DNA of 51,570 nucleotides from an uncultured Clostridia bacterium. GTDB taxonomy: Bacteria > Bacillota > Clostridia > Oscillospirales > Ruminococcaceae. Below, in pieces: positions 24,397 to 45,230 of this stretch; positions within the stretch are counted from its first letter, which is position 1; each line of letters opens with the position of its first letter. The position numbers and the translations under genes are program-made. Under the pieces are notes generated by a model that worked only from the letters and a program-made list of their open reading frames with translations, was not told the origin of the DNA and made no database searches. The DNA is taken from the NCBI GenBank assembly GCA_947625195.1, contig CANQNK010000016.1:1-51570 (forward strand), in the 5' to 3' direction.

Positions 24397-24484
24397 GGAG
24401 AGATGTCCGAGCGGTTTAAGGTGCAGCTCTCGAAAAGCTGTGAACCGAAAGGTTCCGAGGGTTCGAATCCCTCTCTCTCCGCCA
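24397..24484 (+). tRNA. tRNA-Ser (anticodon CGA)
   Basis: Class II tRNA: acceptor GGAGAGA pairs with TCTCTCC, discriminator G, encoded CCA. The anticodon arm CAGCT-CTCGAAA-AGCTG gives anticodon CGA (reads UCG). There is a long variable arm (GAACCGAAAGGTTC) and a T loop TTCGAAT. It is the insertion point of the island to its right. Confidence 0.95.
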
Positions 24485-25052: not shown

Positions 25053-25134
25053 TAGTGCTAGAATAAACCCCAGACACGCTAAAGTGAACAAAAAAGTGAT
25101 ATAATAAGTAAAAAGAACACAGGAGGAAAAAGCA

Positions 25135-25428
25135 ATGGGGAAACAGCAAAAACAGTACACACAGGAATTCAAGCAAGATGCGGTAAATTACCGCAGGGAG
25201 CATCCGGAATTGTCATTAGAGGCATGCTCAAAGAATTTAGGGGTATCTCACTCAGCGCTGAACAGATGGCTTGAGGCTCGGGATAAAGACGGAAAGGTCG
25301 TCATGCGTGGATCAGGAAATTATTCAAGCGATGAAGCTAAAGAGATCGCAAGGCTGAAAAAGGAATTGAAAGATACAAAGGACGCACTTGAAATATTAAA
25401 AAAAGCTATGGGTATCCTGAGCAAATGA
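25135..25428 (+). CDS. IS3-family transposase OrfA
   Basis: 97 residues, complete. An N-terminal helix-turn-helix of the IS3/IS911 OrfA type (QYTQEFKQDAVNYRREHPEL, then SLEACSKNLGVSHSALNRWL) is followed by a leucine-zipper-like C terminus (EIARLKKELKDTKDALEILK). OrfA binds the IS ends and normally fuses to OrfB by -1 frameshifting. CAGGAGG precedes the ATG. Because orfB is broken, no functional OrfAB is expected. Confidence 0.92.
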   Translation: MGKQQKQYTQEFKQDAVNYRREHPELSLEACSKNLGVSHSALNRWLEARDKDGKVVMRGSGNYSSDEAKEIARLKKELKDTKDALEILKKAMGILSK

Positions 25429-27699: not shown

Positions 27700-28080
27700 T
27701 TTCCCTCACAGATTTGGAAAAGGAAGCGGTTTTGTACCCCCTGTTCGGAAAAAGTTCTTTCACTTGTTTGGACTGGGGGGCGGTATTCCTAACCCCCTCG
27801 GGAATGAAATTTTTTATACCCTCTCACTTGTTCCGACAGGGAGAGGCGGATATTCAACCGCTTTTTGAAAAAATTATTCTTTTTTTGGAAAGGGAAGAGA
27901 TTTCACTCCCGCTTTTGTATCTGTGAGAAAAAGTCCTCTCACTTGTTCTGACTGGGAGAAGCCATTTTCTAACCCTCCTTGCAAAAAAATTTTTGCCTCC
28001 CACTAATTCGCACTGGGAAGGGGCCATCCACAAGTCATTTTTGAAAAATTCCCCTCATTATGTCTGGACAAAGGACGGCG
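27700..28080. repeat. Degenerate tandem repeat array, about 60-bp period, six units
   Basis: Each unit has an A-tract (starting at 27749, 27807, 27868, 27928, 27983 and 28044) and, in most units, a core like CTCACTTGTTCNGACTGGGAG (27761, 27825, 27940, 28001) followed by TTCTAACC-like sequence. Steps are 55-61 bp. The whole 27482-28316 gap contains no convincing gene. The array lies upstream of the Xis-RepA operon and resembles iterons. Confidence 0.7.
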
Positions 28081-29117: not shown

Positions 29118-30245
29118 TCATTTTACAATTTGAACGAGTGCATTCACAATAGCTTCAATATCTTCAGACGAATTATTTTTTCCAAGCGATATTCTAATGG
29201 TTCCTCTTGCATATCGTTCATCTAATTTTATTGCTTTGAGGACGTGTGATATTTCGGTGTTTTTGCTATCACAAGCCGAACCTGTAGAAATGCTAATTCC
29301 CTTTAAATCCATTCGATGAAGAATAGCCTCACCATCTTTTCCATCGAAGGATAAATTAATGATGCCTGGCAGAATTTGTTTTCCACCATTCCGAATATAA
29401 GGAATTTGACTTTCATTAATTTTGTCAAAAAATAGTTGTTCAAGAAATCTTACTTTTTTCTTATTTGCCTTGAGTTGTTCGATATTATTTTTAAGTGCAA
29501 TGGCCATACCGACAATAGATGCAACATTTTCCGTTCCTGCTCGAAAACCAAATTCTTGCGCACCACCATCCACGTAAGAGGGCAACATTACACCTTTTCG
29601 GACATATTGGAAGCCAACGCCTTTTGGACCATTAAACTTATGGGCAGAAGCAGTCAGCAAATCCACTCCCAAATTTTTCACATTAATCTCAGTATGTCCT
29701 ACGGCCTGAACAGCGTCTGTGTGGAAAAATGCATTATGAGCGTGAGCTACCTCGCATAACTCTTGGATTGGTTGGATTGTCCCAAGCTCATTGTTAACAT
29801 ACATAAATGTGACTAAAAAGGGCTGTTTAGTAGTAATAGATGGCTCTAAAGTGTTGGGCATAATCATGCCATTTTGATCGGGCTCAATATATGTTACAGG
29901 ATGTCCTATTCGCTTAATAGCTTCACAAGAGCGAAGGATGGCATGATGTTCAAACGCCGAAGTAATGACGTCTCTACGGTCATCATTTAAAAAGGCGAGA
30001 CCTTTTATTGCCCAGTTATCTCCTTCTGTGCCGCCCGATGTGAAGTAGATTTCGTCCGGATCAGCATTGATACAAGCTGCGATTGTTTCTCTGGAATCAG
30101 CTAAAGCCTTCTTTGCAGATCTTGAAAAGGAATACGGTTGCGAAGGATTTCCGTATTCATCCGTCAACCACGGAACCATAGCTTCAAAAGCAGCCTTATC
30201 CAATTGGGTTGTTGCTGCGTTATCAGCATAAATACAAACTTTCAT
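29118..30245 (-). CDS. Cysteine desulfurase (IscS/NifS/DndA type)
   Basis: 375 residues from the ATG at 30245, 5 bp after the brxL stop; an alternative GTG start at 30257 would overlap brxL. PLP enzyme releasing sulfur from cysteine as an enzyme persulfide. The PLP lysine is Lys203 in TASAHKFNGPKG, the PLP-anchoring His in SAFEHHAILRS, and the persulfide Cys325 in STGSACDSKNTEISHVL. It opens with IYADNAATTQLD. It is the last gene of the BREX operon, which also contains the PP-loop protein BrxP. In DNA phosphorothioation systems a desulfurase (DndA, SspA or host IscS) feeds the PP-loop enzyme DndC/SspD; the same division of labour is inferred here. It is not adjacent to iscU or tRNA-thiolation genes. 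Confidence 0.93.
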   Translation of the reverse strand: MKVCIYADNAATTQLDKAAFEAMVPWLTDEYGNPSQPYSFSRSAKKALADSRETIAACINADPDEIYFTSGGTEGDNWAIKGLAFLNDDRRDVITSAFEHHAILRSCEAIKRIGHPVTYIEPDQNGMIMPNTLEPSITTKQPFLVTFMYVNNELGTIQPIQELCEVAHAHNAFFHTDAVQAVGHTEINVKNLGVDLLTASAHKFNGPKGVGFQYVRKGVMLPSYVDGGAQEFGFRAGTENVASIVGMAIALKNNIEQLKANKKKVRFLEQLFFDKINESQIPYIRNGGKQILPGIINLSFDGKDGEAILHRMDLKGISISTGSACDSKNTEISHVLKAIKLDERYARGTIRISLGKNNSSEDIEAIVNALVQIVK

Positions 30246-30250
30246 AGTAA

Positions 30251-31816
30251 TCACCACTGATATTGTACATCGGGTATAGTATTTTTTCCGGGGACATCAA
30301 ACTCCTTCGGATCGATAATGCAAAGTTGTTTTTTAATAATTGCACGCATTTCCTTTGCTGGATTCAAGCAATATTTTATGAATTCATCAGGGGCAATGTC
30401 CTCTTTATGAATGGCATGGGGAAAAAGTAATTTGATGAAAGCAGTACAAAGGCGCTTTATTGCAGTCATATCACGCTTGTCTGCCTTTGCAGGAACTGCA
30501 AGGCACGCATCAACCAACGCAGAATAAGAAAGGTCATCTCTCATCGCGTGCATCACTTCGGCGAAATATTCGGTGTTAATGGCCCAACCATTTGCAATGA
30601 GATCTTGATTCAGACGTGGAATTTCCCATCCGGGAATAAATCCGTGGAAACGATCCAGAGTTGCCGATTCACCAAAAACCTCACTAATATTCTCCACCAT
30701 GTTCTGGTTAATGTCAAACTTTTCAGCATCAATATTTCCCAACACAATTACACCGGCCTCAGTGGACATCTGCGCATCGAATCCCTTGATTTCACCAAAC
30801 TCCATATAATGTTTGAGTGCTTGTTGAATCTGCCCGGGCTGTTCAAATGAAATTGATTGAACCTCGTCAAACCCAACATAGTCAAATCTCGTAAGAAGGC
30901 CACCGGACTTCTTCGCATTATCGTATATCAAAGAAGCTCTTGAAACAGTTCCTCCACTTATCAGCCAACCGCGTTTACTTATTTTTTCATAAACGTAACT
31001 CTTGCCAGTACCTTTGGGAGCCAATTCGATAAGATTGACTCTTCTTTCTATGAACGGAAGTAATCTTCTTAAAAAGAACAACTTAGTCTCTTCGCTGATG
31101 TTCCCCTCGGAATCTACATAGCCGGAAGGATTATAGTCAACAGCAGCGATGATAACATCTATCCATTCGTGGATGTCAAAGTTTTTTCGTGCTTCTTTAT
31201 AGAAATCCAAATCAACTCTATATGGACAAAAAGGCTTATAACCGCTCATATAGATTTCGTTAGGCTTGTGCTGGGGTCTATCATCTACTTCAGATTTTTT
31301 TTTGCTCTTTCCAAAAAGCTTCTCATAGAATTTTGATATCTTTGCGGACGAACCGTATTCAAATTCGTCATCAAGACTCAATGTGCTTCCGAGAGCAAGT
31401 TCGATAATGCCCCAGTTCTCGCTTTCTCTCAAAAGGGTGTCCGCATACTGCTCAAGGACTTCATCGGATACTATCCCAGAAGCGCCTCCTCGTGATCCAC
31501 CAAAGTCAGGCAGTTCAAATTGCACTACACCCTTTTTAAGATTTACATCAAGGCGAACTCTCGCCAATAGTTTTTCTGTGCTACCTTGCATCAATCTGTA
31601 TTTAATTACCTGAAAAGCGTCTCTGTCAGGAATAAACTTTTTGATGTATGAGAGGGTGCTATCGAAGTCAATGTTACCCTGATTATCAGAGAATTTCATC
31701 ACAAGCCAGTCTCTCATATAAGAGGGCATACTTAGGTTGGAGAAGAATTCTGATCTTTTAGGATCTTTCAAAACAACCATATCTGAAAATACCTGTCTCA
31801 CCTTATCTTCAAGCAT
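30251..31816 (-). CDS. brxL: BREX AAA+ protein BrxL, apparently without Lon protease domain
   Basis: 521 residues. The N-terminal half (about 1-215) includes KDPKRSEFFSNLSMPSYMRD, typical of BrxL. The AAA+ core has Walker A APKGTGKS (266-273), Walker B YVGFDEVQ (313-320), sensor VIVLGNID (357-363) and RFHGFIPGWEIPR. BrxL of type 1 is about 650-690 residues and ends in a Lon-like protease domain; here the chain ends about 100 residues after the AAA+ module, with no recognisable Ser-Lys protease domain. In type 1 systems BrxL oligomerises on DNA and is needed for defence. AGGAGG precedes ATG; 14 bp separate it from the 69-residue gene. Confidence 0.85.
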   Translation of the reverse strand: MLEDKVRQVFSDMVVLKDPKRSEFFSNLSMPSYMRDWLVMKFSDNQGNIDFDSTLSYIKKFIPDRDAFQVIKYRLMQGSTEKLLARVRLDVNLKKGVVQFELPDFGGSRGGASGIVSDEVLEQYADTLLRESENWGIIELALGSTLSLDDEFEYGSSAKISKFYEKLFGKSKKKSEVDDRPQHKPNEIYMSGYKPFCPYRVDLDFYKEARKNFDIHEWIDVIIAAVDYNPSGYVDSEGNISEETKLFFLRRLLPFIERRVNLIELAPKGTGKSYVYEKISKRGWLISGGTVSRASLIYDNAKKSGGLLTRFDYVGFDEVQSISFEQPGQIQQALKHYMEFGEIKGFDAQMSTEAGVIVLGNIDAEKFDINQNMVENISEVFGESATLDRFHGFIPGWEIPRLNQDLIANGWAINTEYFAEVMHAMRDDLSYSALVDACLAVPAKADKRDMTAIKRLCTAFIKLLFPHAIHKEDIAPDEFIKYCLNPAKEMRAIIKKQLCIIDPKEFDVPGKNTIPDVQYQW

Positions 31817-31831
31817 TTTGATTCCTCCTAA

Positions 31832-32041
31832 TCAAATGAACAAAGTGCAGCCTTGCTCTTTGAATTCAGCTATCTTTATTTTCAAGTCTTCAACATCGCA
31901 ACCAAAAGAGACGCATAAGCAATCTAAACACCTAAATTCCATAAGATTTAAAGAAATAAGCTTTTTGTTTAGAGCAATTTCATCTTTTGTCAGTTGTCGA
32001 CCACAGTCAATACATGTTCCTTTTCCTTTTATTCTATTCAT
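31832..32041 (-). CDS. 69-residue CxxC zinc-binding-like protein in the BREX operon
   Basis: Contains two CxxC pairs in CIDCGRQLTKDEIALNKKL and FRCLDCLC, arranged as a zinc ribbon/knuckle, then a helical tail (DVEDLKIKIAEFKEQGCTLF). TAAGGAG precedes ATG; it is 12 bp after pglZ and 15 bp before brxL, so it is translated in the operon. I recognise similar small Firmicute proteins of unknown function but no named family. It could be a structural Zn partner of PglZ/BrxL or a redox or sulfur-relay protein. The core type 4 list (brxP, brxC, pglZ, brxL) does not include it. Confidence 0.75.
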   Translation of the reverse strand: MNRIKGKGTCIDCGRQLTKDEIALNKKLISLNLMEFRCLDCLCVSFGCDVEDLKIKIAEFKEQGCTLFI

Positions 32042-32053
32042 TTCCTGTACTCC

Positions 32054-34399
32054 TTAGAGGTCATCATCAACGACCAGTCCCTTCCTTTTCACGAAAATGG
32101 TTTCCGCTTTATGCGAGAAAAGGCTATTGGGGTAGATAGCTATCTTATAATAATTTCCGGCAGATAAACCCGGGATTTTGACTGTCCACGTATTGCAATC
32201 GATAGCCGAACCTTTTATAAGCTTACCCTTAAAGTCCACAACAAGACTACTAGCTGGTTCATCTGTTTTAATGGTTAGCGTCACAAATCCATCGCAGCTC
32301 AAGAACACTTCAGAGGATGAGAGGCTGTAATTGATAGGCTTTGGCATAGTGCCATGCGTATTAACCTTTGCAAAATGCAGAATGGGAACCAACAATTCTT
32401 CGGGACTGGCACCTCCATGTACCTCTCCCGGTGCATATCCTGAAAAAGTAAAGTGGTTATGAGTACGAAACGCCACTATGTTCCCATCTTTCTTGGCGTT
32501 TGAAATGTTTAGAGGGGTTGCCTCTGAAGATAGTACACAATACCTTCCGTGATTAAAAACTTCCGCTTTTGACGGTGAATTAACGCCCTGCGTTAAGTGG
32601 AAGCCTTTCGCAGCCATTCTACTCATTCCGTGATCAGCAGTTACAATTACTTCCATATCCGGGTGAGCTCTGATTGTATCGACTATTCTACATGCAATCG
32701 TCTCAATGAGTTCAAATTGCTTGGCTATTATGGAAAAGTAATTACAATCGCTCTTGTCTTTTATGTGACTGAGCCTATCCAAGTCATCGATTTTCTTTTC
32801 GGAAATAGTCTCGGGGTCGGCCTTGTCCATATTAACTTTGGTTATAGTCGGAAGAGCGGCCGTACCTATACTCACTTTTGGTAAAGAAACCGATGGGTTA
32901 ATCCTTTTGATTTTTTCCAAAAGTATATCGATCCACTCAATACCGAGCCCATCAAACCATAGAAAGTATGGCGAAGTTACGTTTTTTTTGAGGGAAAACA
33001 GAATGGCTCCTCTCGTATCAAACTCAAGACAGTCAATTTGACCTGCTGTGTCAGACAATTGCAAAGAAAAAGTGTCTGCGATTTTTCCAGATTTATATGC
33101 AGCCATGTACTCTCCTAGCTCACCTGAAAGATACGTTGAAGGTTTCAGGTACAGCAACAAATCAGGGTACTTTTCCTGCAAAAGCGTCTTGAAATCGTTT
33201 ATTGTCTTTCCTTCGTTTAGTGCATGAGAAATTAGTTCGAGTATTTTCGTCCGCTCTTCATGTGTTCTGCCCGTTAGAATTTTAAGCTTGATTCTTGTAT
33301 CAACAATCTGATCAAACTTTTCAATAAATGTGCGGCTTGGGGCGTGATATCCGGCTTTTTTCAGAATCTCTTCTCTTTGCAACACCCACTCGTCGAAATT
33401 GGAATTATCCTGACAATCAATGATTGTACACTCCAAGCTGCTAAGCAAATCGCGATGGTTAACGGATCGTTCGACAGCAAGGGAAATATAATCGCTTGAC
33501 TTATTCAGTCCCAGTTTATACCAAAGAAAGAATGCCCATCTCTCATTGTCTGATAGAGTGTTCCAATTACCAATGACTGGTTTGGGATCAAAGGAGTGCA
33601 TATTTAGAGCGTGCGGAATAACTTCGTCCATAGTAATTTTTGGTGAAACAAATGGGATAAGCGATGTCCACTGCTCGTCAGTGCCTAACTGCTTTGAGAG
33701 CTTGGCAGTTTCATCCACCAATGCGTCTTTGATGTACTCAAATGGATCCGCAACAGTCTTTAATGTGTAATCCCCATTCGTGGGTGTAATCTGCTTTATT
33801 TGTCTTGTTGCAAACGACATGCCAGATTTAACTTTTAGATTATCCCATAGGGATAGCCATTCCCTAATGCCGACAGCATCTACGATTCCTTTTTGCTTAG
33901 CAAATACTTTCGAATAGGCGGTCGCAGTGAAATCAACAGGATTATCGTCTATTTCGATAATTGAATTTCCGAACCGCTCCTCATCGAGGGGGCCAACAAC
34001 TCTTTGGAAAAGGCCTTTTGCCAGAAAAATTGGAATCCATACTCGTTTCTTCGAATGAACATGTCGATTCAAAATCGAGTAAATGCACGCAGCATTCTTC
34101 TCTGTTATCTCCCCAATGCGCAGGTATTCTGCAAGATGAGGAACAAGAATGTCCTTGTCTTTGTTTTTATCAAGGAACGCAATAAGAGCTTTGAGATCCG
34201 GTACGGTGTCTGAACCCTTGCAGAACTGCTCATCAGATAAACGAACGGTGATATCTGCTTGATCAGAAAGCGTTTTTACAAAGGAATAGTAAGCCCCCAG
34301 ATTATTCAAAAAGAATACTCTGGCAACAAAGCGATTTTCGTCTCTATCTGATTTTATATAATCTTTTACTTCCTGTAAGGATTTCTGTTCAAACACCAT
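32054..34399 (-). CDS. pglZ: BREX PglZ domain protein
   Basis: 781 residues from the ATG at 34399 (TTGGAGG 6 bp upstream; a TTG start 4 codons earlier overlaps that site). The N-terminal two thirds are helical. The PglZ (alkaline-phosphatase superfamily) domain lies at about 475-690, with metal-ligand segments FDGLG (482-486), TADHG (587-591) and HGGASPEELLVP (661-672). The C-terminal 90 residues form a beta-rich module. PglZ is essential in BREX systems; recent work on the family points to nuclease/phosphodiesterase activity. It is 16 bp downstream of brxC. Confidence 0.92.
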   Translation of the reverse strand: MVFEQKSLQEVKDYIKSDRDENRFVARVFFLNNLGAYYSFVKTLSDQADITVRLSDEQFCKGSDTVPDLKALIAFLDKNKDKDILVPHLAEYLRIGEITEKNAACIYSILNRHVHSKKRVWIPIFLAKGLFQRVVGPLDEERFGNSIIEIDDNPVDFTATAYSKVFAKQKGIVDAVGIREWLSLWDNLKVKSGMSFATRQIKQITPTNGDYTLKTVADPFEYIKDALVDETAKLSKQLGTDEQWTSLIPFVSPKITMDEVIPHALNMHSFDPKPVIGNWNTLSDNERWAFFLWYKLGLNKSSDYISLAVERSVNHRDLLSSLECTIIDCQDNSNFDEWVLQREEILKKAGYHAPSRTFIEKFDQIVDTRIKLKILTGRTHEERTKILELISHALNEGKTINDFKTLLQEKYPDLLLYLKPSTYLSGELGEYMAAYKSGKIADTFSLQLSDTAGQIDCLEFDTRGAILFSLKKNVTSPYFLWFDGLGIEWIDILLEKIKRINPSVSLPKVSIGTAALPTITKVNMDKADPETISEKKIDDLDRLSHIKDKSDCNYFSIIAKQFELIETIACRIVDTIRAHPDMEVIVTADHGMSRMAAKGFHLTQGVNSPSKAEVFNHGRYCVLSSEATPLNISNAKKDGNIVAFRTHNHFTFSGYAPGEVHGGASPEELLVPILHFAKVNTHGTMPKPINYSLSSSEVFLSCDGFVTLTIKTDEPASSLVVDFKGKLIKGSAIDCNTWTVKIPGLSAGNYYKIAIYPNSLFSHKAETIFVKRKGLVVDDDL

Positions 34400-34415
34400 A
34401 CAAGCCTCCAAGAGT

Positions 34416-37400
34416 TTATTCTTCGTCGAGCAACAATAGACAAGCTTCTGAACTTTGATCGAGTATCCGCTCCAATTGCTTCTTCAACTGATCTAAGTTG
34501 TTAATATCTTTTACTCTCTTTTTCGCTTTGTCGCTGACTTCAGCTTTCAAATCTGTAACAATGTATTTTTCGACAATTGGGCGGATTGAAACAAGATCGT
34601 TGTTCCAATGGTCATAGTTTCTGTATCCGTTATTCTGGATCTTGTTTTTCAGATCTTTCACATGCGGAAGAAGTATGCCGACAAATTTTTCTGATGCAAC
34701 ATTCATTATAAATCGACGATCAATTTCAGCTTGATCAGAGAGAATTGAAAAATCGAAATTTGCAATGCTGGTTATCGCATTGTCCAAACGAATGTCATCA
34801 ATACGCTCGTTTTTCTCCAACGCAGAAATGACGGAGAAAAGGCTTCCAAAATTAGGCATTACCCAAACAATTGGCATCATATACTTCGTGGTCCAGGAAG
34901 AAACATTATCAATTCCGATTCTTGCTTTCCAAGCTACCATTAACTGATTGACTTTATTCGAGTAAGCCAAGTCCTTAATCTTGTTCCTGACGTTGGACTT
35001 AAAATTGTGCTCGGTTTGCTCAAACGGTTCTTTAGGGAGCGCCTGCAGAATATCCTTGTATTCGGCATCGGAGAAGGTTCCCATCCCGTTTTTCTCAATA
35101 TATGATTTCAATACGGAAAGCGGATGAGCAATGTTATCTATGGCTTCAGCCATATACTGTTCTAACCCTTTAATGACGGCGAGTTTTTCGTCGTTGCTAT
35201 AGGATACCCATTTGTTCGCTGAAAGATTGTGTAATGTCGCTACGGTCCCCGCCCAACTATCGGACAAAGACGCATAGACGCATCCAGGAATACGGATATA
35301 GTCAAGATAATTTGACAGCGTCTCTCTGACCTTTTCAACAGACTCTGCTGAACCCTCAAGCACATCGTTAATGACGCCGACAAGGGTCAAATCCAATGTA
35401 AGTTTACTTGCAGCATCTGTGACTTCCTGTTCACGCCATTGCCACTTTTCTTCTTCAAGAACCCTACTCAGCATCGTAAAGAGGGTTTCCATAGAGAACC
35501 CATACTTATCGCATGCAGCCTTAGTGTCAGGAGCCTTCTCATAAATGAAATTTTTCATGCCGGTAACGAGTTTGGTTTTGTCTTTTAGCAGGCTGTTTAA
35601 CATCTGTACGTAGATTTTCGGATTACATTTGATCAGGCCGATGATTTCCTCCATTACATCAGACTGATTACCGGACTCGAGGATATACTCAACATATTTA
35701 TTTACGATTTCAGATATTTCTGACTTGACACCGGAGAATTCTTCGTCATCAAGATACTTAATTGCCCAAACTGGATAACCGTTCTTTGTAATGTGGATCT
35801 TCACATTCTTTCGGCAATCATAGATATCACCAACTTCTTCCTGAGAAAGGCCGAAGATTCTACGAGTAATATCCTTAAAGCGCTTCTCAATGTCACTCTC
35901 GCTGGAGAGCTTCATTCCTGCTGCTTTGCCGCTCAACATACTTACAATGAGAGTTGAAATCGTCTCCTCATCAAGCTTGTGAGCATTGTTTCCGTCAAAC
36001 CAAGTGAATTTTCCGATGTAGAAATGCAAAGCAAAGCCAATGAGATAGCAGCATACGCCAGTATCGTAATAACCGAGTTCCTGCTGGAGATTATCCCACA
36101 GATCAGTTAATAAAACGGTGCCAGAAGTTAATGCTTTGTTCAGGAAGGAAGAAAGAGCTGCCATGCTGCGGCCCACCTTAGTTTCATCCATAGCCATGAT
36201 TTCTTCTATGGTGGCGCAATCCCAAACATTCTCATCGTTATCTCTAAGAATGTCTACACAATCCTGCCATTGCTGGTTGAAGTTTTTCTGCCTATCATTC
36301 GCAGGATTTTTGGTTTGAAGAGTGGTTTTTGAAACGCCATAATATGCCGGCGCAAGCGCAACGGATTTGTAGAGAGTTATTTTTTTGATGATACTTTCTG
36401 GCGCGGCCGGGAACACCTTAAAGACAATTTTTTCGTAGCTCGAGATAACAGCTTTGTTCGTGTAGACATGGGAAGGTGCGGTGCCGTATAACAAATCCAT
36501 GTCCTTGCCGATAGCTGTACTTATCCAGTTGCCGACAAGATCAGTTGCTTGCTGCTGATATGAGTTAGCGTTTACAGTATTTCCTGACTTTTGTGCCAGA
36601 GAACCATTCGCAACAAGTTCATACCAGTTTTTTAAGGTCTCTTCTGGAAGCGGATAGCGCATGATGCACACCAGCAAACGCTTTGTATCATCGGCATCAA
36701 GAAGAGTGCCTACTGTGATTTTAATTTTTTCAATCTCTTCGATGCTTGGAACAGCGACGATCAACAATCCAAATTTGTGATATGTTTTCTCAACCGCTTT
36801 TTTGAGTTCTCCAAATTTATAGTTGAGCTGCTGAGTTGTTCCCCAACAGGTATCTACAATGAGTCTCTTAACAACAGCCTTTTCTTCGGGAACAAACTGT
36901 TTCTTTAGAACAGATCCAAAATAAGAATCCGCATTGAACAGTTTACTCGGAGAGTTGTCTTTTCTAATCTTCTCGATTTCAACATCAAGTTCTCCGCCGG
37001 TTCCGGAATACGGAAGTTCAATCCTCGACCCTTCATAAAGATCAGGAGCGAGCACGAGCACGCTCAACGGCTCGGAACTAAGGGCTTGCAGGCACTTTGA
37101 TATCTCGGTTTTATCAAGCATACCGGAGAAACAATCACACAGTGTCTTTTCAGTTGCTTGAATACCTCTACTCAATTTGGATTTCTTGAGGCTGTGGCCT
37201 GAACCAATAGTAGCTAAAAGGAGCATTGCGCCTTTGAAAACGCGAAGAATACGATCATCATTGATTTGATTCTTTACTTTGTTATAGTGTTTTAGAGCAT
37301 CTTCGGCAATTTTGGTAAGATCCTTTTTGCCGCCTTGATTGTTAACGAAAAAGTAATCCCACAGATAATCAGGAGTGACCCATTTCCAGTCATAACGACC

Positions 37401-38645
37401 ATTATTATGGATGTATGCTCTAAAGCCATCGTCCCCATTACTCTTCAGGAACTCAAAAATACTTCTGTTGGACGCAGCAAGTCCAGCCACCTTGGATACC
37501 AAGTTGACCGTCATGGGATGTATGGGGAATATCTTCTTCAGAGTTGTGGCATCAAGATCAGAACCGGGATCACCCATGAAAGAATGGACGCTGCCGCTGA
37601 TAGACGAATACAGCTCATCGCAGATTTCGTCCCAGTTTTCCTTCATTCCGTCACGTGTGATGATACTCTCGCCGATAAGTTTTAAGGTGGTTTTCTCGCT
37701 CAAAGAGACATCGATCTTGTGGAATCTGGCATCTGCCTTGCCGAGTCCGGCAGAAACATTTTCAGAAAAGACGCCAGGATACTCATGCATCACATAAATG
37801 ATGAAGAACGGAACTTCTTTAGAGAAAATAGAAAGCTGCTGGATAATGTCCAGGTCGTTAGCTCTGATGTACTCCGTGAACTCATCCCAGATGATGAACA
37901 TTCCGGTCTTAGCAAGTTCGCTGTTTCCAGCATACACATCTTTGATCCAAGCTTTGAATGTATCCAGATCGGTAGCAAGACCGATATTCATTGACTGCAG
38001 TATTCCCTGAGCGTAAGAACAAGCGGTTACATCGCCGGCGATTACGGAATTGAAGAAGTCTTCAAAACTATCGTATGTACCCCAATACTCCGGGAACGCA
38101 CCGTCCTCGAAATCATGCTCCAGCTTGGGCTTGAATTCTCTCACAGTCTTTTTAACTGAATCGATGAGAGAATTCCTACCGGTATAGTAAAATCCGTTTT
38201 CTTGTAAGATATCTCTGACGGATTGCTCTATTTGGAAGAGGAACTTGTTCGATGTATCAAGCTGCTTGCACTCGCCGCTGCGGAATTTGACATAGTACGG
38301 ACCTTTTTTACGGGCGCTGAGGAATTTATCTTTGACTTCATAAAACAGAGAGTTCTTGTTTAGAAAGTTCTCGACCGTCTTATAATCATCCTGCAAAAGG
38401 TGCTTGATAACGATGGCAGAATAAGTCTTTCCGGTTCCGTATGATCCCTTAATCCAGTAATGCCAAACGTCTTCGTTTGGATCATCCGGACGAAGTGATT
38501 TTGCAAGAAGTCTTACCGCAGTTACCATATCGTCATTGACGATATACCGGCTCCAGAAGTCTGCATTTCTGCTGTCAGAACTGATATCAACAACAGATTC
38601 ATAACCGGGAGTGAGTTCTATAAACGAATCATACTTGTTTGCCAT
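34416..38645 (-). CDS. brxC: BREX large P-loop ATPase BrxC/PglY
   Basis: 1409 residues from the ATG at 38645, with GGAGGTGA 6 bp upstream; the longer ORF start at 38678 lies inside brxP. Walker A GSYGTGKT (67-74) within VWHYWIKGSYGTGKTYS, Walker B MFIIWDEFTEYI (249-260), followed by more than 1000 residues of helical scaffold. BrxC/PglY is the large conserved ATPase of all BREX types and helps assemble the modification and defence complex on DNA. It is 1 bp downstream of the brxP stop, so strictly coupled. No frameshift or internal stop is seen. Confidence 0.9.
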   Translation of the reverse strand: MANKYDSFIELTPGYESVVDISSDSRNADFWSRYIVNDDMVTAVRLLAKSLRPDDPNEDVWHYWIKGSYGTGKTYSAIVIKHLLQDDYKTVENFLNKNSLFYEVKDKFLSARKKGPYYVKFRSGECKQLDTSNKFLFQIEQSVRDILQENGFYYTGRNSLIDSVKKTVREFKPKLEHDFEDGAFPEYWGTYDSFEDFFNSVIAGDVTACSYAQGILQSMNIGLATDLDTFKAWIKDVYAGNSELAKTGMFIIWDEFTEYIRANDLDIIQQLSIFSKEVPFFIIYVMHEYPGVFSENVSAGLGKADARFHKIDVSLSEKTTLKLIGESIITRDGMKENWDEICDELYSSISGSVHSFMGDPGSDLDATTLKKIFPIHPMTVNLVSKVAGLAASNRSIFEFLKSNGDDGFRAYIHNNGRYDWKWVTPDYLWDYFFVNNQGGKKDLTKIAEDALKHYNKVKNQINDDRILRVFKGAMLLLATIGSGHSLKKSKLSRGIQATEKTLCDCFSGMLDKTEISKCLQALSSEPLSVLVLAPDLYEGSRIELPYSGTGGELDVEIEKIRKDNSPSKLFNADSYFGSVLKKQFVPEEKAVVKRLIVDTCWGTTQQLNYKFGELKKAVEKTYHKFGLLIVAVPSIEEIEKIKITVGTLLDADDTKRLLVCIMRYPLPEETLKNWYELVANGSLAQKSGNTVNANSYQQQATDLVGNWISTAIGKDMDLLYGTAPSHVYTNKAVISSYEKIVFKVFPAAPESIIKKITLYKSVALAPAYYGVSKTTLQTKNPANDRQKNFNQQWQDCVDILRDNDENVWDCATIEEIMAMDETKVGRSMAALSSFLNKALTSGTVLLTDLWDNLQQELGYYDTGVCCYLIGFALHFYIGKFTWFDGNNAHKLDEETISTLIVSMLSGKAAGMKLSSESDIEKRFKDITRRIFGLSQEEVGDIYDCRKNVKIHITKNGYPVWAIKYLDDEEFSGVKSEISEIVNKYVEYILESGNQSDVMEEIIGLIKCNPKIYVQMLNSLLKDKTKLVTGMKNFIYEKAPDTKAACDKYGFSMETLFTMLSRVLEEEKWQWREQEVTDAASKLTLDLTLVGVINDVLEGSAESVEKVRETLSNYLDYIRIPGCVYASLSDSWAGTVATLHNLSANKWVSYSNDEKLAVIKGLEQYMAEAIDNIAHPLSVLKSYIEKNGMGTFSDAEYKDILQALPKEPFEQTEHNFKSNVRNKIKDLAYSNKVNQLMVAWKARIGIDNVSSWTTKYMMPIVWVMPNFGSLFSVISALEKNERIDDIRLDNAITSIANFDFSILSDQAEIDRRFIMNVASEKFVGILLPHVKDLKNKIQNNGYRNYDHWNNDLVSIRPIVEKYIVTDLKAEVSDKAKKRVKDINNLDQLKKQLERILDQSSEACLLLLDEE

Positions 38646-38646
38646 C

Positions 38647-41007
38647 TTATTCACCTCCAAGGACGAGATCAACGACATCTAAAGATGTTTTTTCGCTGTT
38701 CAAAGTGATATTGTCGAGGTCGGCTACAAAAGCGATCTTAATAAAATCTGGGTACTCGTTAGCCAACTGACGGAGCATGTCCTTAAAAGCGTTTTCTTCT
38801 AACGCATAGACCGTGACAGGATCCATTCCAATAAAATCTTCTGGTCTGTTGTTGCGGACGGATTTCAGTTCCTTCAAAGTCGTGTTGTAATGCCCGCCAA
38901 GTTTTTCGGCATATCTGTATAGCGTATATAGTATCGCAGCTCCGTCTGGAGTGGACCAGCCCTTCTTGTAATACTTATAGGTGTTACCATTTGGGATTGG
39001 AATACCCATTTCAAGAGTATTGCCAATCGGGCTTTTCCCCAGAGTTTCGCACAACGAAGAAACCGCATTTTCTCGCTGACGTTCTGAATAGTCGTCACCA
39101 ATTAAGAAGACAAAATCGCCTTTTTCATAGATTTCGCCTTTATCTACACAAAGAAGGTACCACTTGATTAGAGAAGAGTTGTACGCTAAATTGGTCCAGA
39201 TAACAGCCCATGTGAGTGGATTGTAAACTCCCAACCCTATCAGTTTTTGACCCAATGCTGTTATCTGACCATTTTTATCAATCTGAGGATTAACTTCGAT
39301 GATTTCAGCTTCTTTAAGCCATACCTTTAAGGACGCATATTGTAGATTGCCAAGTTCTTTAGAACTCCAACAGTCGTTTCCAAGTTCAAAGAAATGTTCA
39401 AGAAATGATTCTCTGAATCCAAGAGTGGTATAACGATTCATACCAATAAACTTCATATTGTTTCCTCCTAGCGTGGTTATCAAGCATCGAGCAAGTTTAC
39501 AACTCTTTTCTATTTCAGTTAAGCATTTATAACAATGAACACACTTGGTTGAGTCTATCCTGATTTTTGAGTTTTCATCTATTAAAAATGCTCCTGTCGG
39601 ACATTCAACAACACAAGTTTTGCATCCAACGCAATATGCGACTTTGTACGCTATCCCTCTTAACCAACTGATAATGAAACGATCCATATTGGACTTAGGT
39701 CCGTAGGTGACTTTTAAGCCATTTTCGTTTTCAACGGTAAACTGAAAGGCTTTTCCTTTTATAATTTGTTCTCCGCTGAAAGCGGTTCTTTCGGTAACAG
39801 GACCAAGTATTCTGGCAACTTCAATCCACTCCTGTGTACTTTCAGTAAAATTGAAGATGATTTTATCATCAGAAATAACTTCATAAACGCGGTTTCCTCC
39901 GTTTTCCATTCCTCGGCCGCCTGCACGAGATTTCCATCTTCCGGCTTCAATATATCCACGCATCGCTTTGTCTGAAACGCCCATATTTTTTCCATATTTT
40001 TTTACACGATCAAGAAAAGGCGCAAGTTCGTTTGGGTATACGAAACTACAAATAGCATCTCGCCATCCTGAAGAGAGGGGGCAAATAGTACATCCCACTC
40101 GGTTTGAACCATATCTATAGGCTTTATTAAACAGGATGTTGCGAGAAAAAATATATAAAAATATCTCCCCGGTGTTCCAAGTGAAAATTGGACTGCAGTT
40201 AACCTGATTTATATGTTTTCCATTTGAAATTTCAGAATAATGCGATCTACGTTCGCTTTCTTCCGCTCTGACACCATCGAAAACTAAAGCTAATGTATCC
40301 TCTCCGTCACTACAAAGTTCCCTCAATTTGAGCATTGTCGGTACAGACTTATGTACTGTACAACACCACCTCATTTTTCGGCCAGGTGGGCCAAATATAT
40401 CCCATGAATGCTCTGCAGAGAAGATAGATTTGGCCTCCTGAAAATTCAAATTTGGGTAATGCTGTTTTGCCAATTCTACAGCATTATATGTGTCGGATAA
40501 TTCCATACCTGTGTCGCCAAAAATAACGAAGAACTGATCTGGTGCGAGAGCCCTTTGAACTAAATCGAGCAGCACAATCGAATCTTTTCCGCCACTAAAA
40601 GTTGTAACAAATTTATAACCTTTAGCAACATACTTATCATATGTGGCTCTAATAAAATTGATAGCTCTCTGCACAAGCCCTTCCAATAAAGAATGATTGG
40701 TGGCAACCAATTTATTCACATCAATCGGAATCAATTCCTTAATCTTTGAATTTTTAACAATGATCTCGGGCTTGTCATATATACTTCCGCCTTTAGCCTC
40801 TGCAATTACTTCGCCGTTCAAAACGTATTTCCTGATTCCTTCAGCCCATAGTAAGGGCGCATCGGTATCGGGATAATCCCAAACCTTATACATTTCAAAG
40901 AAATCAAGTTCTTCCTTGAAGACCGGTCTTATTTCCTTTTGAACGGTAACGGAAACGTCCAGGTTGAATATTCCGTTTTCGCCATCAATCCATTTATATC
41001 CGTACAT
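38647..41007 (-). CDS. brxP: BrxP: PAPS-reductase/PP-loop protein with ferredoxin and DUF4007-like domains
   Basis: 786 residues. N-terminal wing (1-125), then the PP-loop domain with FSGGKDS (137-143), the motif that binds ATP in PAPS/APS reductases and in DndC. Cys215-Cys216 (RWCCTVHK) and Cys306/Cys309 (GCTICPLSSGW) form the CC...CxxC set that ligates [4Fe-4S] in APS reductase and DndC. A ferredoxin domain follows: CVGCKTCVVECP (459-470) and CVHCYKC (489-495) plus Cys503, ligands for two clusters or one plus remnants. Residues about 518-786 (MKFIGMNRYTTLGFRESFLE) look like a DUF4007 domain, usually a separate protein beside DndC-like genes. The gene defines BREX type 4. AAGGGTGAC precedes ATG. 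Confidence 0.9.
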   Translation of the reverse strand: MYGYKWIDGENGIFNLDVSVTVQKEIRPVFKEELDFFEMYKVWDYPDTDAPLLWAEGIRKYVLNGEVIAEAKGGSIYDKPEIIVKNSKIKELIPIDVNKLVATNHSLLEGLVQRAINFIRATYDKYVAKGYKFVTTFSGGKDSIVLLDLVQRALAPDQFFVIFGDTGMELSDTYNAVELAKQHYPNLNFQEAKSIFSAEHSWDIFGPPGRKMRWCCTVHKSVPTMLKLRELCSDGEDTLALVFDGVRAEESERRSHYSEISNGKHINQVNCSPIFTWNTGEIFLYIFSRNILFNKAYRYGSNRVGCTICPLSSGWRDAICSFVYPNELAPFLDRVKKYGKNMGVSDKAMRGYIEAGRWKSRAGGRGMENGGNRVYEVISDDKIIFNFTESTQEWIEVARILGPVTERTAFSGEQIIKGKAFQFTVENENGLKVTYGPKSNMDRFIISWLRGIAYKVAYCVGCKTCVVECPTGAFLIDENSKIRIDSTKCVHCYKCLTEIEKSCKLARCLITTLGGNNMKFIGMNRYTTLGFRESFLEHFFELGNDCWSSKELGNLQYASLKVWLKEAEIIEVNPQIDKNGQITALGQKLIGLGVYNPLTWAVIWTNLAYNSSLIKWYLLCVDKGEIYEKGDFVFLIGDDYSERQRENAVSSLCETLGKSPIGNTLEMGIPIPNGNTYKYYKKGWSTPDGAAILYTLYRYAEKLGGHYNTTLKELKSVRNNRPEDFIGMDPVTVYALEENAFKDMLRQLANEYPDFIKIAFVADLDNITLNSEKTSLDVVDLVLGGE

Positions 41008-41025: not shown

Positions 41026-43305
41026 TTAGTTTATTGTGACCCTTCCATTGTTGTCAGTCCAATAAAAGCGAATATCTCCTGCGACAGTTTTGTGGACGTT
41101 CCACATTTTTTCTGAACCGCGGATAAAGCCTTTATTAAGCAAAAACTCTCTAAACTCCGATGCGGTAAACTCTTTCGGAAGGGGGAATGATTTTGAAATC
41201 TCATTCCATGCCACATCGCTAAAGGCCCGATAGTGCGATTTCTTACGAACAATCGCAGCCGGAACCGTTTTCTTGTCATTATCTTTGCCAGCTTCAATTG
41301 TCGTGAAGCCGGTTTCATATATCCTTAATACATCTTCCAACAGCAGAGATGACCAGTAGATTCCACTCGGAAGTTTGGGAAGAGTCGTATAGAAATAGTC
41401 GTCAATTTCTCCCAAGGCAATATAGTCTTCACCCTCAAGCAGGTTTTCAATTTGTGAGGAGACGGAAGCGATAAAATACTCGTTAACATGGAGCGATTCC
41501 GCCAACACAAACTGGTTCTCGTCATACTGCAAAAACGACTTGCTGCCGGTTTTGAATATCGTAGAAGAGAATGTTTGAGCAGGCGTAGCGGATCCAATCT
41601 GTTCAAAATACGCAAGCGCAGCTTCTCTTGTGAAAACATTTCCGTGATCTCGAGCGTACTTGATTAGAAGGCCATAAAAGTCTTTGGGATAATCTGGTTC
41701 TTCTTTCCAGATGTGCATATTGTTCTGGAATATAAACAAGTTTCCTTTGTACTTCTCCTGTTCAAATAAATGCACCGCAAGATCATACACCTCTTGACGA
41801 GAGTCAAAGGCGTTATTGTAAAAGAAGAAATCATCCAACCGGGGGCGTGCTTCATTGTAAAGCTGCTGAGCCGACGTGTAGTTCCCTTTTTGAGAAAACT
41901 GTTTACTGATTACTTCTAAGAGAATATCAGCCATTTCCTGATAATCGCTTATGTTGTCTCGATGGTAGTATTTTTTTAGGATCAGAACAGCATGACAAGT
42001 TTCCAGAGCAAGATTGATCTGGCGTGTGCTGCAATTTGAGAACTTCTTACAAATCTCATTTTTAGTGACCCCTTCAGCAGAAGCACGGATAAACTCACCG
42101 ATCTGTTCTAACATTTCCGTGGTCATCGGATCAGGCGTTCTATCATCATTGGTGGAAGATTTCTCTGATTCTCTTCTGCGTCTTTCGCCAATTCGCTTGG
42201 TATAGTGAATTTCAATGTCTTCGGAAGTTAGTCCGGTCAAAGCGGCGGCCGCCGCAAGCCGCTTCATGAATCCGTTGGCTGAAATATTTACTTCGATAAT
42301 CAAATCATCAGTCAACTGAGAGTAGCGGCGCAGCTTGTAAGATTCAGTGTTTTTTGCAATGTCAATCCAGTCGTTGCTCAACAAGCTCAAATCGGCAACA
42401 AAAGTATCTGCATAGTCTTCAGCCAATCGTCTCATCAAAGTTGTATATAGCTTCGACCATGTACTTACAGATTCTCTGTCTTGATTCTTATATCTGAACC
42501 ACAGGGGTTTCGTATAACCATAATCCTGCGTTCCATCAAATGAAGCAATTATTTCATCGATGCCGATGTTGTCCAATTCGCTTTTTTCTGCTTCAACGGC
42601 GTTGTCTATTTTACTAATCGCAGAAGACGAAGCCTGTTCTGGTTCCTCTTTTTGTACTGGCAGCGTTAACTCAGGTAGGATCCGAACAAACGAGTAATAC
42701 CGGTTTGAGGCATCTATGATTGCGGGATATTGCTTCCTGTTCCGAATGCGGAATATTTTGTTGTTAGTAACTGTTTTTACGAATTTCTTTATCACATCAA
42801 CATCCGTCGTTTCAAACAGCGGCGCAGTCAAAACTTTGAGCTTTTTGCAGAAGTCCTCTCCGATAGCCAGCAGTTGACATACGGCTTCCGGCCTGAGTTT
42901 GGGTGCCTTTTCTTGAAGCCATTCACAAAATTGAGTGCGAACATTGACTGTATTTGCGCCCATTTCTTTTGCCTCCAATAAAACCTTTTCGAATTCGGTT
43001 CTGTTGTTTAGGTACATATCAACCATCTCACGAAACAAATCCGAAGTATTCTTCAAGCCAACGCTACCTGAAGAAAAAAGATAGTCCAATTCTCTCAGGC
43101 GCATATTGATGCCATTCTCATTTCGGAAAGTATCGTCTGTCTCAAAAGACGCTCGTTTTCTCAAAAAAGACGACAGTGATGCGACAATAGTTTCTTTTTG
43201 GGACTGATCCGCCTTTATTTTAAAATAAGCCTCTATCAGAAGAGCTGTTTCGTACTTATCCCAATTGGGCTGCCGCAATGCCATCACCTTCTTCGTATCA
43301 ATCAA
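41026..43305 (-). CDS. 759-residue unknown protein heading the BREX operon
   Basis: Not recognised by name. N terminus: PNWDKYETALLIEAYFKI followed by FRNENGINMRLRELDYLFSS, a W..YE..LL..Y / FRN..G pattern I associate with N-terminal domains of several Firmicute restriction and defence proteins. The middle (about 250-395) is mixed alpha/beta, residues 380-400 are charged linker, and the C-terminal 370 residues look like serial winged-helix modules (VTKNEICKKFSNCSTRQINL; VFTREAALAYFEQIGS; FTASEFREFLLNKGFIRGSE). No catalytic motif was found. The start is uncertain: TTG at 43305 or ATG at 43284. It ends 18 bp before brxP and begins 42 bp after hipT, so it links both modules. A DNA-binding recognition subunit is a reasonable guess. 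Confidence 0.85.
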   Translation of the reverse strand: MIDTKKVMALRQPNWDKYETALLIEAYFKIKADQSQKETIVASLSSFLRKRASFETDDTFRNENGINMRLRELDYLFSSGSVGLKNTSDLFREMVDMYLNNRTEFEKVLLEAKEMGANTVNVRTQFCEWLQEKAPKLRPEAVCQLLAIGEDFCKKLKVLTAPLFETTDVDVIKKFVKTVTNNKIFRIRNRKQYPAIIDASNRYYSFVRILPELTLPVQKEEPEQASSSAISKIDNAVEAEKSELDNIGIDEIIASFDGTQDYGYTKPLWFRYKNQDRESVSTWSKLYTTLMRRLAEDYADTFVADLSLLSNDWIDIAKNTESYKLRRYSQLTDDLIIEVNISANGFMKRLAAAAALTGLTSEDIEIHYTKRIGERRRRESEKSSTNDDRTPDPMTTEMLEQIGEFIRASAEGVTKNEICKKFSNCSTRQINLALETCHAVLILKKYYHRDNISDYQEMADILLEVISKQFSQKGNYTSAQQLYNEARPRLDDFFFYNNAFDSRQEVYDLAVHLFEQEKYKGNLFIFQNNMHIWKEEPDYPKDFYGLLIKYARDHGNVFTREAALAYFEQIGSATPAQTFSSTIFKTGSKSFLQYDENQFVLAESLHVNEYFIASVSSQIENLLEGEDYIALGEIDDYFYTTLPKLPSGIYWSSLLLEDVLRIYETGFTTIEAGKDNDKKTVPAAIVRKKSHYRAFSDVAWNEISKSFPLPKEFTASEFREFLLNKGFIRGSEKMWNVHKTVAGDIRFYWTDNNGRVTIN

Positions 43306-43347: not shown

Positions 43348-44295
43348 TTACCTTAAAACCTGGCATCTTTTTTCGATCAATTCCGAAAACCGCTCTTTCA
43401 AATGTTGCGATAGCAGGGAATTTTCGCACAAATCCTGATAATTTGATTTAAGGGAAACTATTTTCGCAATCATTTTTTCGACCGATGACTTTGGTATTTC
43501 GCACTCTTCCGCAAAGACGAAAAAGTCTTTTCTGCGGATATGAGTCTTTTTACCATTCATGGCAAGTGCAAATTCCTCCGTATCCTCAGGCATTATTACA
43601 TTAACTGGAAGCAAATCGTACGCTGGTGAGAGTGTGTAGACGCCACTTGCCTCGTACGTTTCAATCAGCGAGAAGTTTTTGAGGTGCATATCCGAATTAC
43701 CGACGACAAAGGAGAATACCAAACGCATAAACAATTCTGAAATATCCAACTTTGGTTGAGAGGAGTACCTTCCTATTACCTTTGCACAGCGTTCATAAGA
43801 ACCTTTGTACTTGTCCTGAGTCAAACGTAAATCAAGTTGGCAGAAGTCCTCCATAGCAAGCATTTGAACCCCGGTTTTATCAATAATTCTATCAACACGC
43901 TTGGTGATATAGGCAAACGTATTATTGCTCTGGATGAGAGCGTGAGGAACAGTTGAGATACCTGATATGTCCGCCATGGTCATAACCAGCTGTTCTGCTT
44001 CTGGCAAACATTCGAATTCAGCAACTTGCGGTTTTAAAATGTAACCGGTTGGGTAATTAACAAGCGTCAAGCGTGGGCTATTATCGTCCGAATGCAAATG
44101 TAGGGACAACTTTTTTTGAACACCGGGGACTGTGATTCCCTTATTTGTATTTTCCCGTGCAATCTCTTCCAAAGTATGATCATCTATTTCAATTTTTGGA
44201 ATAGAAGTTGTCCCAAAAAAGCGTTTAATGCAAGCGTGATGCCAACCGTTTATATCGTTTTTTCTTAACGGTTTGCCACAGCAATAACAGTTCAT
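43348..44295 (-). CDS. hipT: HipT-like serine/threonine kinase toxin
   Basis: 315 residues of the HipA kinase fold lacking the N-terminal subdomain, as in HipT of the tripartite HipBST system. Gly-rich ATP loop GITVPGVQKKLSL (53-65), catalytic GNSDMHLKN with Asp202, and metal-binding PAYDLLP with Asp227. The N-terminal CYCC plus HHACIKRFFG cysteines/histidines form a small zinc-like finger. HipT of E. coli phosphorylates tryptophanyl-tRNA synthetase and blocks translation. The target here is unknown. It overlaps hipS by 4 bp (ATGA). The next gene, 42 bp on, heads the BREX module. Confidence 0.92.
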   Translation of the reverse strand: MNCYCCGKPLRKNDINGWHHACIKRFFGTTSIPKIEIDDHTLEEIARENTNKGITVPGVQKKLSLHLHSDDNSPRLTLVNYPTGYILKPQVAEFECLPEAEQLVMTMADISGISTVPHALIQSNNTFAYITKRVDRIIDKTGVQMLAMEDFCQLDLRLTQDKYKGSYERCAKVIGRYSSQPKLDISELFMRLVFSFVVGNSDMHLKNFSLIETYEASGVYTLSPAYDLLPVNVIMPEDTEEFALAMNGKKTHIRRKDFFVFAEECEIPKSSVEKMIAKIVSLKSNYQDLCENSLLSQHLKERFSELIEKRCQVLR

Positions 44296-44621
44296 TTCTT
44301 TTCCTCCGCAACTGTCACATTACCAATACCGTCTTTGCATGCAACAAGCAACAATCCAAAACGATCTTTCGTATCAATCTTCCAGTTTCTACTAACTACA
44401 CCAAGAAGCCAGCCTTCAGGAATAAGTCCGTCGAAGAATGAGAATAAAGTGCCGGAATCATAGGGCTCCTCTCGAAGAGGCAATGTCAGCGAAACCGCAG
44501 ATGCGTTTTCAGATTTTAGATAATTTTTATCATAGGTAAACCTATAGCCGGAATCTGTTTCAGAGAGAACGCCCGCAAAGACATTTCTCACATATACATA
44601 AGCACTTCTAAATGCTCCCAT
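44292..44621 (-). CDS. hipS: HipS-like small subunit (HipA N-terminal domain)
   Basis: 109 residues matching the N-terminal subdomain of HipA as a free protein: RSAYVYVRNVFAGVLSETDS, later SLTLPLREEPYDSG, SFFDGLIPEGWLL and DRFGLLLVACKDGIGNV. In HipBST, HipS rather than HipB acts as the antitoxin of HipT. It overlaps the hipB stop by one base (TAATG) and hipT by 4 bp, so the three are translated together. Confidence 0.92.
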   Translation of the reverse strand: MGAFRSAYVYVRNVFAGVLSETDSGYRFTYDKNYLKSENASAVSLTLPLREEPYDSGTLFSFFDGLIPEGWLLGVVSRNWKIDTKDRFGLLLVACKDGIGNVTVAEEKK

Positions 44622-44824
44622 TATTTACTTTCCTTTCTTTCCGGAACGGCAGTAGCGCCGAACATTTCAAGAGCAACATTCACTTTATCCATGCGGACGG
44701 TTTCTTTACCCTGTTCAAGATCACGAACAAAGCGAAGCCCCAAGCCGGAGCGCATAGCAAATTCTTCTTGCGTAAGTCCTGCTTCTTTTCTACTTTTCTT
44801 AACAAATTCGGCGATAGGATTCAT
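44621..44824 (-). CDS. hipB: HipB-like XRE transcriptional regulator
   Basis: 67 residues, an XRE helix-turn-helix: IAEFVKKSRKEAGLTQEEFA then MRSGLGLRFVRDLEQGKETV. HipB-type proteins bind operators in their own promoter and augment the antitoxin. AGGAGA is 10 bp before the ATG. Three 18-bp inverted repeats lie upstream, one occupying the promoter spacer exactly, so tight autoregulation is expected. Confidence 0.93.
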   Translation of the reverse strand: MNPIAEFVKKSRKEAGLTQEEFAMRSGLGLRFVRDLEQGKETVRMDKVNVALEMFGATAVPERKESK

Positions 44825-44857
44825 AGCATAATTCTCCTACTTTCGGTATTGTTATTC

Positions 44858-44886
44858 ATTATATACCCTTTGGGGTATAAAGTCAA
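44858..44886 (-). promoter_or_regulatory. Promoter of hipBST
   Basis: Minus strand TTGACT (44881-44886), 17-bp spacer, TATAAT (44858-44863). The spacer is filled by operator O1, so a bound repressor would exclude RNA polymerase. The transcript could run through hipBST into the 759-residue gene and the BREX genes. Confidence 0.88.
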
Positions 44887-44961
44887 TAGGATTCATTAAT
44901 AAATATACCTTTGCGGGTATAATTTTAATTTGTATTAATTGGATATACCTTTTCGGGTATA
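44862..44961. promoter_or_regulatory. Three HipB operators (O1-O3)
   Basis: Three 18-bp inverted repeats of the form TATACC-N6-GGTATA at 44862-44879, 44904-44921 and 44944-44961. Start-to-start steps are 42 and 40 bp, close to four helical turns, so bound dimers would face the same side of the DNA. O1 lies between the -35 and -10 boxes. Confidence 0.88.
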
Positions 44962-45069
44962 AAAATAAAGCTGCTATCAATTTCGTTGTGGATTAAATAT
45001 TAATTTGGCATTATATGTAGATTCTTTTCACTCAGCACGAACCGTTCAAAGTGGTTCTAGATGCTATTT

Positions 45070-45104
45070 TAGTCAAGTACGATTTGCCGAATCGTACTTG
45101 ACTA
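45070..45104. repeat. Perfect 15-bp inverted repeat
   Basis: TAGTCAAGTACGATT (45070-45084) and its exact reverse complement (45090-45104) flank a five-base loop TGCCG. No T run follows on either strand, so it is not an obvious terminator. It lies in the 467-bp gap between hipB and tnpV, where no gene was found. Confidence 0.75.
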
Positions 45105-45230
45105 AATTTTAAATTTCAACAAGTGCGTGTGTTCTCTTATACTCGGATAGGAACTGTAGGACTGCCGTTACAAAATCCGAAAATCGTGATTAAATTTCTA
45201 CACGCAAATCTCATAAACCGCATGTCAAAT

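Follow-up and report, generated by a model that had tools for sequence, protein, structure and literature searches.

Gene content of the operon

We analyzed a 51,570-nucleotide stretch of DNA (hereafter the window; assembly GCA_947625195.1, contig CANQNK010000016.1, positions 1 to 51,570) from an uncultured Clostridia bacterium of the family Ruminococcaceae. The window carries a bacteriophage exclusion (BREX) operon of type 4, which is very probably a phosphorothioation (PT)-type system with its own sulfur supply. Seven consecutive genes on the minus strand, all of them open reading frames, form the operon, and their intergenic gaps range from -32 to +18 nucleotides (nt) in the open reading frame list. 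All positions given here are those of the whole stretch, and the seven operon proteins were scanned against PADLOC, Pfam, and NCBIfam at E <= 0.001. From the first gene to the last, the operon comprises:

41026-43305, minus strand: first gene, 759 amino acids (aa) from a TTG start, with an ATG at codon 8; 18 nt before BrxP
38647-41007, minus strand: BrxP, a PP-loop protein resembling phosphoadenosine phosphosulfate (PAPS) reductases, with a ferredoxin-type region; PADLOC BrxP 782.6 bits over residues 1-782 of 786
34416-38678, minus strand: BrxC (PglY-like) ATPase, 1420 aa; PADLOC 192.6 bits
32054-34411, minus strand: PglZ, type 4 form; NCBIfam BREX_PglZ_4 317.4 bits (cut-off 140)
31832-32041, minus strand: zinc-finger-like protein, 69 aa, between PglZ and BrxL
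30251-31816, minus strand: BrxL; PADLOC 590.6 bits, NCBIfam 402.3 bits (cut-off 329.3)
29118-30257, minus strand: cysteine desulfurase, with an ATG at 30245; PADLOC DndA 416.6 and SspA 415.8 bits, Pfam Aminotran_5 258.8 bits

The locus is identified as type 4 BREX by BrxP, the type 4 form of PglZ, BrxC, and BrxL, together with the lack of PglX in the operon: no methyltransferase model of the three collections matched any of the seven proteins, the rest of the genome not having been searched for PglX. The C-terminal part of BrxP (residues 524-703) matches the second BrxP model of PADLOC. The first-pass annotation had recognized BrxP, BrxC, PglZ, and BrxL without PglX and a complete cysteine desulfurase as the last gene, and the family scans confirm both (the desulfurase by PADLOC and Pfam). 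Its operon, drawn from 29118 to 41007, was right for these named genes but missed the first gene and the 69-aa gene. The catalytic pair that it gave for the desulfurase, Lys203 and Cys325, holds when the protein is counted from the ATG at codon 5 (30245), and the listed GTG start turns the pair into Lys207 and Cys329.

Related loci and conserved residues

Related loci were collected by scanning 297 genomes of the host's family and 398 of its phylum with the BrxP model. Two genomes (G000 and G063) are common to both samples, leaving 693 distinct genomes. The phylum scan returned 34 matches at E <= 1e-60; besides that of the window, 15 of the full-length type were compared, and 18 shorter BrxP-like proteins were left out. 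Two loci from metagenome-assembled genomes (MAGs), which are also the two close BrxP relatives found by a single-protein search of genome contigs, one Methanosphaera plasmid, two unannotated faecal 'Bacteriophage sp.' scaffolds, and the window were added. Altogether 26 loci hold BrxP, BrxC, PglZ, and BrxL, with BrxC split in four (L041, L079, L090, and L134) and BrxP short in one (L088). Two loci at contig edges (L048 and L092) and two partial or broken ones (L091 and L093) stand outside this set.

The catalytic residues are kept across the set. In BrxP, the SGGKDS motif (residues 138-143) and twelve cysteines are invariant in 21 aligned rows. Eight of these cysteines lie in the ferredoxin-type region (459-503), and the other four (C215, C216, C306, and C309) form a pattern that, we assume, resembles that of adenosine phosphosulfate reductases. 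D265 and E266 of BrxC are kept in at least 95% of 21 rows, and the ATPase motif of BrxL (residues 266-273) in at least 95% of 23 rows. In at least 90% of 23 rows, PglZ retains D487, T524, D545, H549, D593, H594, and H665, which presumably make up the metal site typical of its superfamily. K207 and C329 of the desulfurase (GTG numbering) are each kept in at least 95% of 13 operon rows.

The zinc-finger-like gene, present in 20 of the 26 loci, encodes a protein with two CxxC pairs plus C65 and with no Pfam match over cut-off. C10, C13, C38, C41, and C65 are kept in at least 95% of 20 rows, H replacing C41 in L045. The conserved C65 was considered as a possible sulfur carrier, but loci without the desulfurase keep it too. 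The position of the gene shifts, before or after BrxL or, in L045 and L086, after BrxP. The sections of PMC12839542 consulted here already describe a small zinc-finger partner of type 4 BREX.

Three further observations concern individual loci. One faecal 'Bacteriophage sp.' scaffold (L133, MT835511.1, marked UNVERIFIED) contains all seven gene kinds, with the zinc finger after BrxL. The Methanosphaera plasmid pNP174 (L132, NZ_CP118754.2) carries an archaeal example of type 4 BREX: its BrxC is shorter (1189 aa), the first gene, the zinc finger, and the desulfurase are missing, and an annotated DUF262 protein follows its BrxL. A second class of loci in the host's family (L049-L057), in which a distant desulfurase lies near a shorter BrxP-like protein, looks Ssp-like; these loci entered the desulfurase tree only.

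A desulfurase lineage linked to the operon

The exclusion of L081, which is cut by a contig end, leaves 25 loci in which the presence of a desulfurase can be determined. Surveyed for an adjacent copy, as the first-pass annotation had proposed, 14 of the 25 carry one: the window, all eight family loci, both MAG loci, two of the 11 phylum loci from other families (L084 and L090), and one of the three database records (L133). The first-pass annotation had named absence from nearly all related loci as what would speak against its reading; such absence is not observed, given this count and a dedicated clade. It had left undecided whether the combination of a desulfurase with BREX was known. This combination is already reported in section 34 of PMC12839542, where the desulfurase is a possible sixth core component, found in 255 of 457 taxa (56%).

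Judged by its model matches, the enzyme is of the NifS/IscS/DndA type and not assignable to one of these by the NCBIfam equivalog models, scoring below cut-off with both DndA (324.2 bits, cut-off 480) and NifS (425.7 bits, cut-off 530.75). A sequence search of the PDB groups it with cysteine desulfurases including SspA (6m4j) and DndA (3vax), and IscS-type entries score higher. A tree of 42 desulfurases places the 13 operon copies in one group (95/90; recovered in 92% of 200 bootstrap trees). Outside it fall 23 paralogs from ten genomes and six desulfurases of loci with the shorter BrxP-like protein (from the L049-L057 set). L133 and L005 (no usable row) and four of the 27 non-operon desulfurase matches, which have no locus, were left out of the tree. 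The desulfurase of the window shares 64% identity with its L042 counterpart and 44% with L001, the closest copy sampled from the same genome. The operon desulfurase appears from this tree to travel with the operon.

A recurrent gene directly before BrxP

Relatives of the first gene lie directly before BrxP in 17 of the 26 loci. It is not obligatory for type 4 BREX, because the other nine loci, the Methanosphaera plasmid included, do without it. In L089 and L092, a different protein precedes BrxP; it joined a looser iterative profile, not the strict one, and was not counted as a first gene. A profile of the C-terminal part matched 19 of the 693 distinct genomes, 17 times directly before BrxP, once beside PbeA and PbeC, and once at a contig end. 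By sample, 11 of the 297 family genomes matched, ten directly beside BrxP and the eleventh (G256) on a 3253-base contig that ends there, as did 9 of the 398 phylum genomes, seven beside BrxP (the window included), one beside a BrxP fragment at a contig end (G561), and one beside PbeA and PbeC (G690). Matches at BREX loci are expected from a profile built on BREX-linked loci; almost nothing else was matched at E <= 1e-12.

The linkage is seen from the side of BrxP as well. Ten of the 11 family genomes with full-type BrxP (two cut by contig ends) carry the first gene, only G167 being without it, and the overlap has a hypergeometric tail of ~1e-16 for genomes that are not independent. The gene is found in 13 of 14 loci with the desulfurase versus 3 of 11 without (Fisher p 0.002, relatedness uncorrected). 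The relative in G690 (L124, G690:C33) is a 1320-aa protein (E 1.2e-30) with a Sigma70_r4 match and lies directly before PbeA and PbeC.

No family of PADLOC, Pfam, or NCBIfam matched the window's first protein at E <= 0.001, and none in Pfam passed its cut-off at a loose threshold. A plasmid search with the protein gave nothing at E <= 0.001, and among PDB sequences the C-terminal profile hit two entries (E 0.24 and 0.62), which we take as chance. The N-terminal domain was considered as a common module and rejected as such: nine of 148 family genomes have it, eight at the BREX locus and one elsewhere, in a 358-aa protein (G004). No description of the gene was met in the literature covered on type 4 BREX and PT, namely sections 20, 34, 38, and part of 35 of PMC12839542 (without Figure 8D, the supplements, and Yuan et al.) and passages of PMC10853773, PMC11931770, PMC12707154, and PMC13326643; full-text searches, only one of them directed at this gene, likewise turned up none. 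We do not claim the gene as unreported; it is a recurrent part for which this literature yielded no description.

Structure prediction gave a poor model of the whole protein, with a mean predicted local distance difference test (pLDDT) score of 45.0. The model of the C-terminal part (mean pLDDT 62.8) contains two winged-helix-like runs of helices and strands at ~543-687, mostly with pLDDT 65-89 and one dip to 40. A Foldseek search with it returned nothing at E <= 0.001; the non-significant top matches include an RNA polymerase III subunit, a SelB fragment, and VPS25, which we take to be tandem winged-helix proteins and regard as only a hint. Among seven proteins of the first-gene family scanned, Pfam found Sigma70_r4 in two, L082 (41.3 bits) and L124 (48.9 bits), the others, among them those of the window, L042, L090, and L122, being without it. 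Unbroken rows are 398-1068 aa long and, outside the two nearest kin of the window, 15-24% identical to its protein, and modules vary from row to row.

The first gene product is a modular, fast-evolving protein predicted to carry multiple helix-turn-helix (HTH) units. Rapid evolution of predicted DNA-binding modules within a defence operon points to recognition of targets or to sensing, and the product most likely contributes DNA contacts in such a role. We put forward, tentatively, the wider proposal that this gene is the founder of a family, so far undescribed, of large and modular multi-HTH proteins that evolve fast, sometimes contain sigma region 4, and are dedicated to PT-linked defence; its members might act as a specificity subunit that directs type 4 BREX to the sites for marking, or as a sensing subunit that picks out unmarked DNA. 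The predicted winged-helix units, the Sigma70_r4 match in L082 and L124, and the first position in the operon would also suit a mere transcription regulator of the operon, outside the marking or defence complex. We hold this to be unlikely: with its large size, low identity, and changing modules, the protein looks more like a fast-evolving recognition part, and one relative adjoins PbeA and PbeC.

Probable sulfur marking and the role of the desulfurase

Phosphorothioation by type 4 BREX is reportedly described by Yuan et al. 2026, as cited in other papers. By analogy, the chemistry, the sulfur hand-over, and the division of labour in the operon may be pictured as follows. The desulfurase would mobilise cysteine sulfur, carry it as a Cys325 persulfide, and hand it to BrxP, which, with its PP-loop and iron-sulfur clusters, would replace a backbone oxygen by sulfur at certain sites of host DNA. 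BrxC would serve as the ATPase scaffold during marking, PglZ and BrxL would act on unmarked phage DNA, and the first gene product would provide additional DNA contacts for recognition or sensing. No protein with GmrSD_N (PF03235), presumably the SspE-type domain, is found in the genome, which makes an SspE-like effector unlikely and leaves PglZ and BrxL as the probable ones.

This picture accords with what is in print. Passages of PMC11931770 count brxPCZL (BREX type 4) among the three gene families known for PT synthesis. Section 34 of PMC12839542 treats type 4 BREX as PT-based with the desulfurase as sulfur donor, and describes PT systems in which a desulfurase mobilises cysteine sulfur and a PAPS-reductase-type protein passes it to the DNA backbone. 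The proposal of the first-pass annotation that this BREX marks host DNA with sulfur agrees with these passages of both papers, and for this organism we infer it by homology.

Several points weigh against a sulfur-marking BREX supplied by its own desulfurase. DUF4007, often fused to BrxP, was not named in the window's BrxP by Pfam at E <= 0.001. The desulfurase is absent from 11 of the 25 determinable loci, genomes without an operon copy (for example G307 and G507) hold other desulfurases, the window's own genome has further ones, and the enzyme may therefore be dispensable. With 11 of 25 loci lacking it, the desulfurase is not what makes the system PT-type; it is probably a dedicated but replaceable sulfur source.

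The same absences, the NifS/IscS-type relatives that remain in the same genomes, and the twelve invariant cysteines of BrxP, enough for several clusters, would be consistent with a desulfurase that serves chiefly to assemble or repair the BrxP iron-sulfur clusters, the sulfur of the mark coming largely from housekeeping desulfurases; a passage of PMC10853773 cites work titled on DndA assembling DndC as an iron-sulfur protein. However, the operon desulfurases are one clade kept with the operon, and the model published in section 34 of PMC12839542 makes the desulfurase the sulfur donor. We therefore regard cluster building as an improbable main role, although the two roles do not exclude each other. 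That the locus does not mark DNA at all, being silent or broken or using its sulfur chemistry for something else, is very improbable: BrxC or first genes are split in relatives (L041, L047, L079, L090, and L134), but all seven genes of the window are open and their catalytic residues are kept.

The idea of sulfur marking is very probably right and already in print, and taken alone it makes this operon a further instance of a system already known. What could matter is the recurrent first gene: type 4 BREX is without a methyltransferase recognition domain, and a dedicated, fast-evolving, predicted DNA-binding protein encoded before BrxP is a candidate for choosing the sulfur-marked sites.

Genomic surroundings

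The following features flank the operon:

24397-24484: tRNA-Ser(CGA)
24609-25172: phage-integrase-family gene, 187 aa, following tRNA-Ser(CGA)
43348-44963, minus strand: HipBST-like set, with a 67-aa HTH-like protein (44621-44824), Couple_hipA (44292-44621), and HipA_C (43348-44295)
48418-49248, plus strand: Mrr-type nuclease with an N-terminal HARE-HTH match

The HipBST-like set, a TnpV gene, a DUF3990 protein, a Fic protein, and the Mrr-type nuclease lie to the right of the operon, and ten sampled proteins left of the tRNA look like products of ordinary metabolic or housekeeping genes. The region looks like a defence island at a tRNA gene, with the tRNA and integrase as its likely left border and no right end located. 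A genome search for a second copy of the tRNA end, as expected of an attachment site, gave two other matches, both of them tRNA-Ser genes, and no such copy.

The HipBST-like set ends 42 nt before the BREX first gene, a spacing that makes one transcript for both possible. Neither HipA-type protein is matched in the BREX loci L040-L059. The set has three palindrome-like repeats of 21 nt (at 44861, 44903, and 44943), located where a promoter scan gave its best match (44886-44858). A terminator-like, perfect 17-nt inverted repeat with a 5-nt spacer (45068-45106) lies between this set and the TnpV gene. A 300-nt direct repeat (45230-45529 and 49330-49629, 87% identical) overlaps the TnpV gene with its first copy, and three 59-nt direct repeats, 61-100% alike, lie past the 3' end of the operon (27820-28054).

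Comparison with known systems

The operon shares single components with several other systems. With Dnd (DndABCDE), the likeness lies in the desulfurase (416.6 bits on PADLOC DndA) and weakly in BrxP (22.4 bits on DndC), whereas none of the seven operon proteins matches DndD or DndE. With Ssp (SspABCD), the desulfurase scores 415.8 bits on SspA, BrxC a weak 74 bits on SspC, and BrxP 35.1 bits on SspD. SspBCD systems are not known to include PglZ and BrxL; in contrast, the operon of the window has both, and its genome has no GmrSD_N protein. The link to PbeABCD, likewise PT-linked, and the CxC ABC-ATPase systems is the first-gene relative directly before PbeA and PbeC in G690, whereas the operon of the window has no PbeA or PbeC match. 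The closest counterpart is the published type 4 BREX (PMC12839542). The window differs from it in the 759-aa first gene, which has no mention in the text sections of that paper (Figure 8D and supplements aside), and shares with it BrxP, BrxC, PglZ, BrxL, the desulfurase, and the small zinc-finger protein, as far as these sections describe it.

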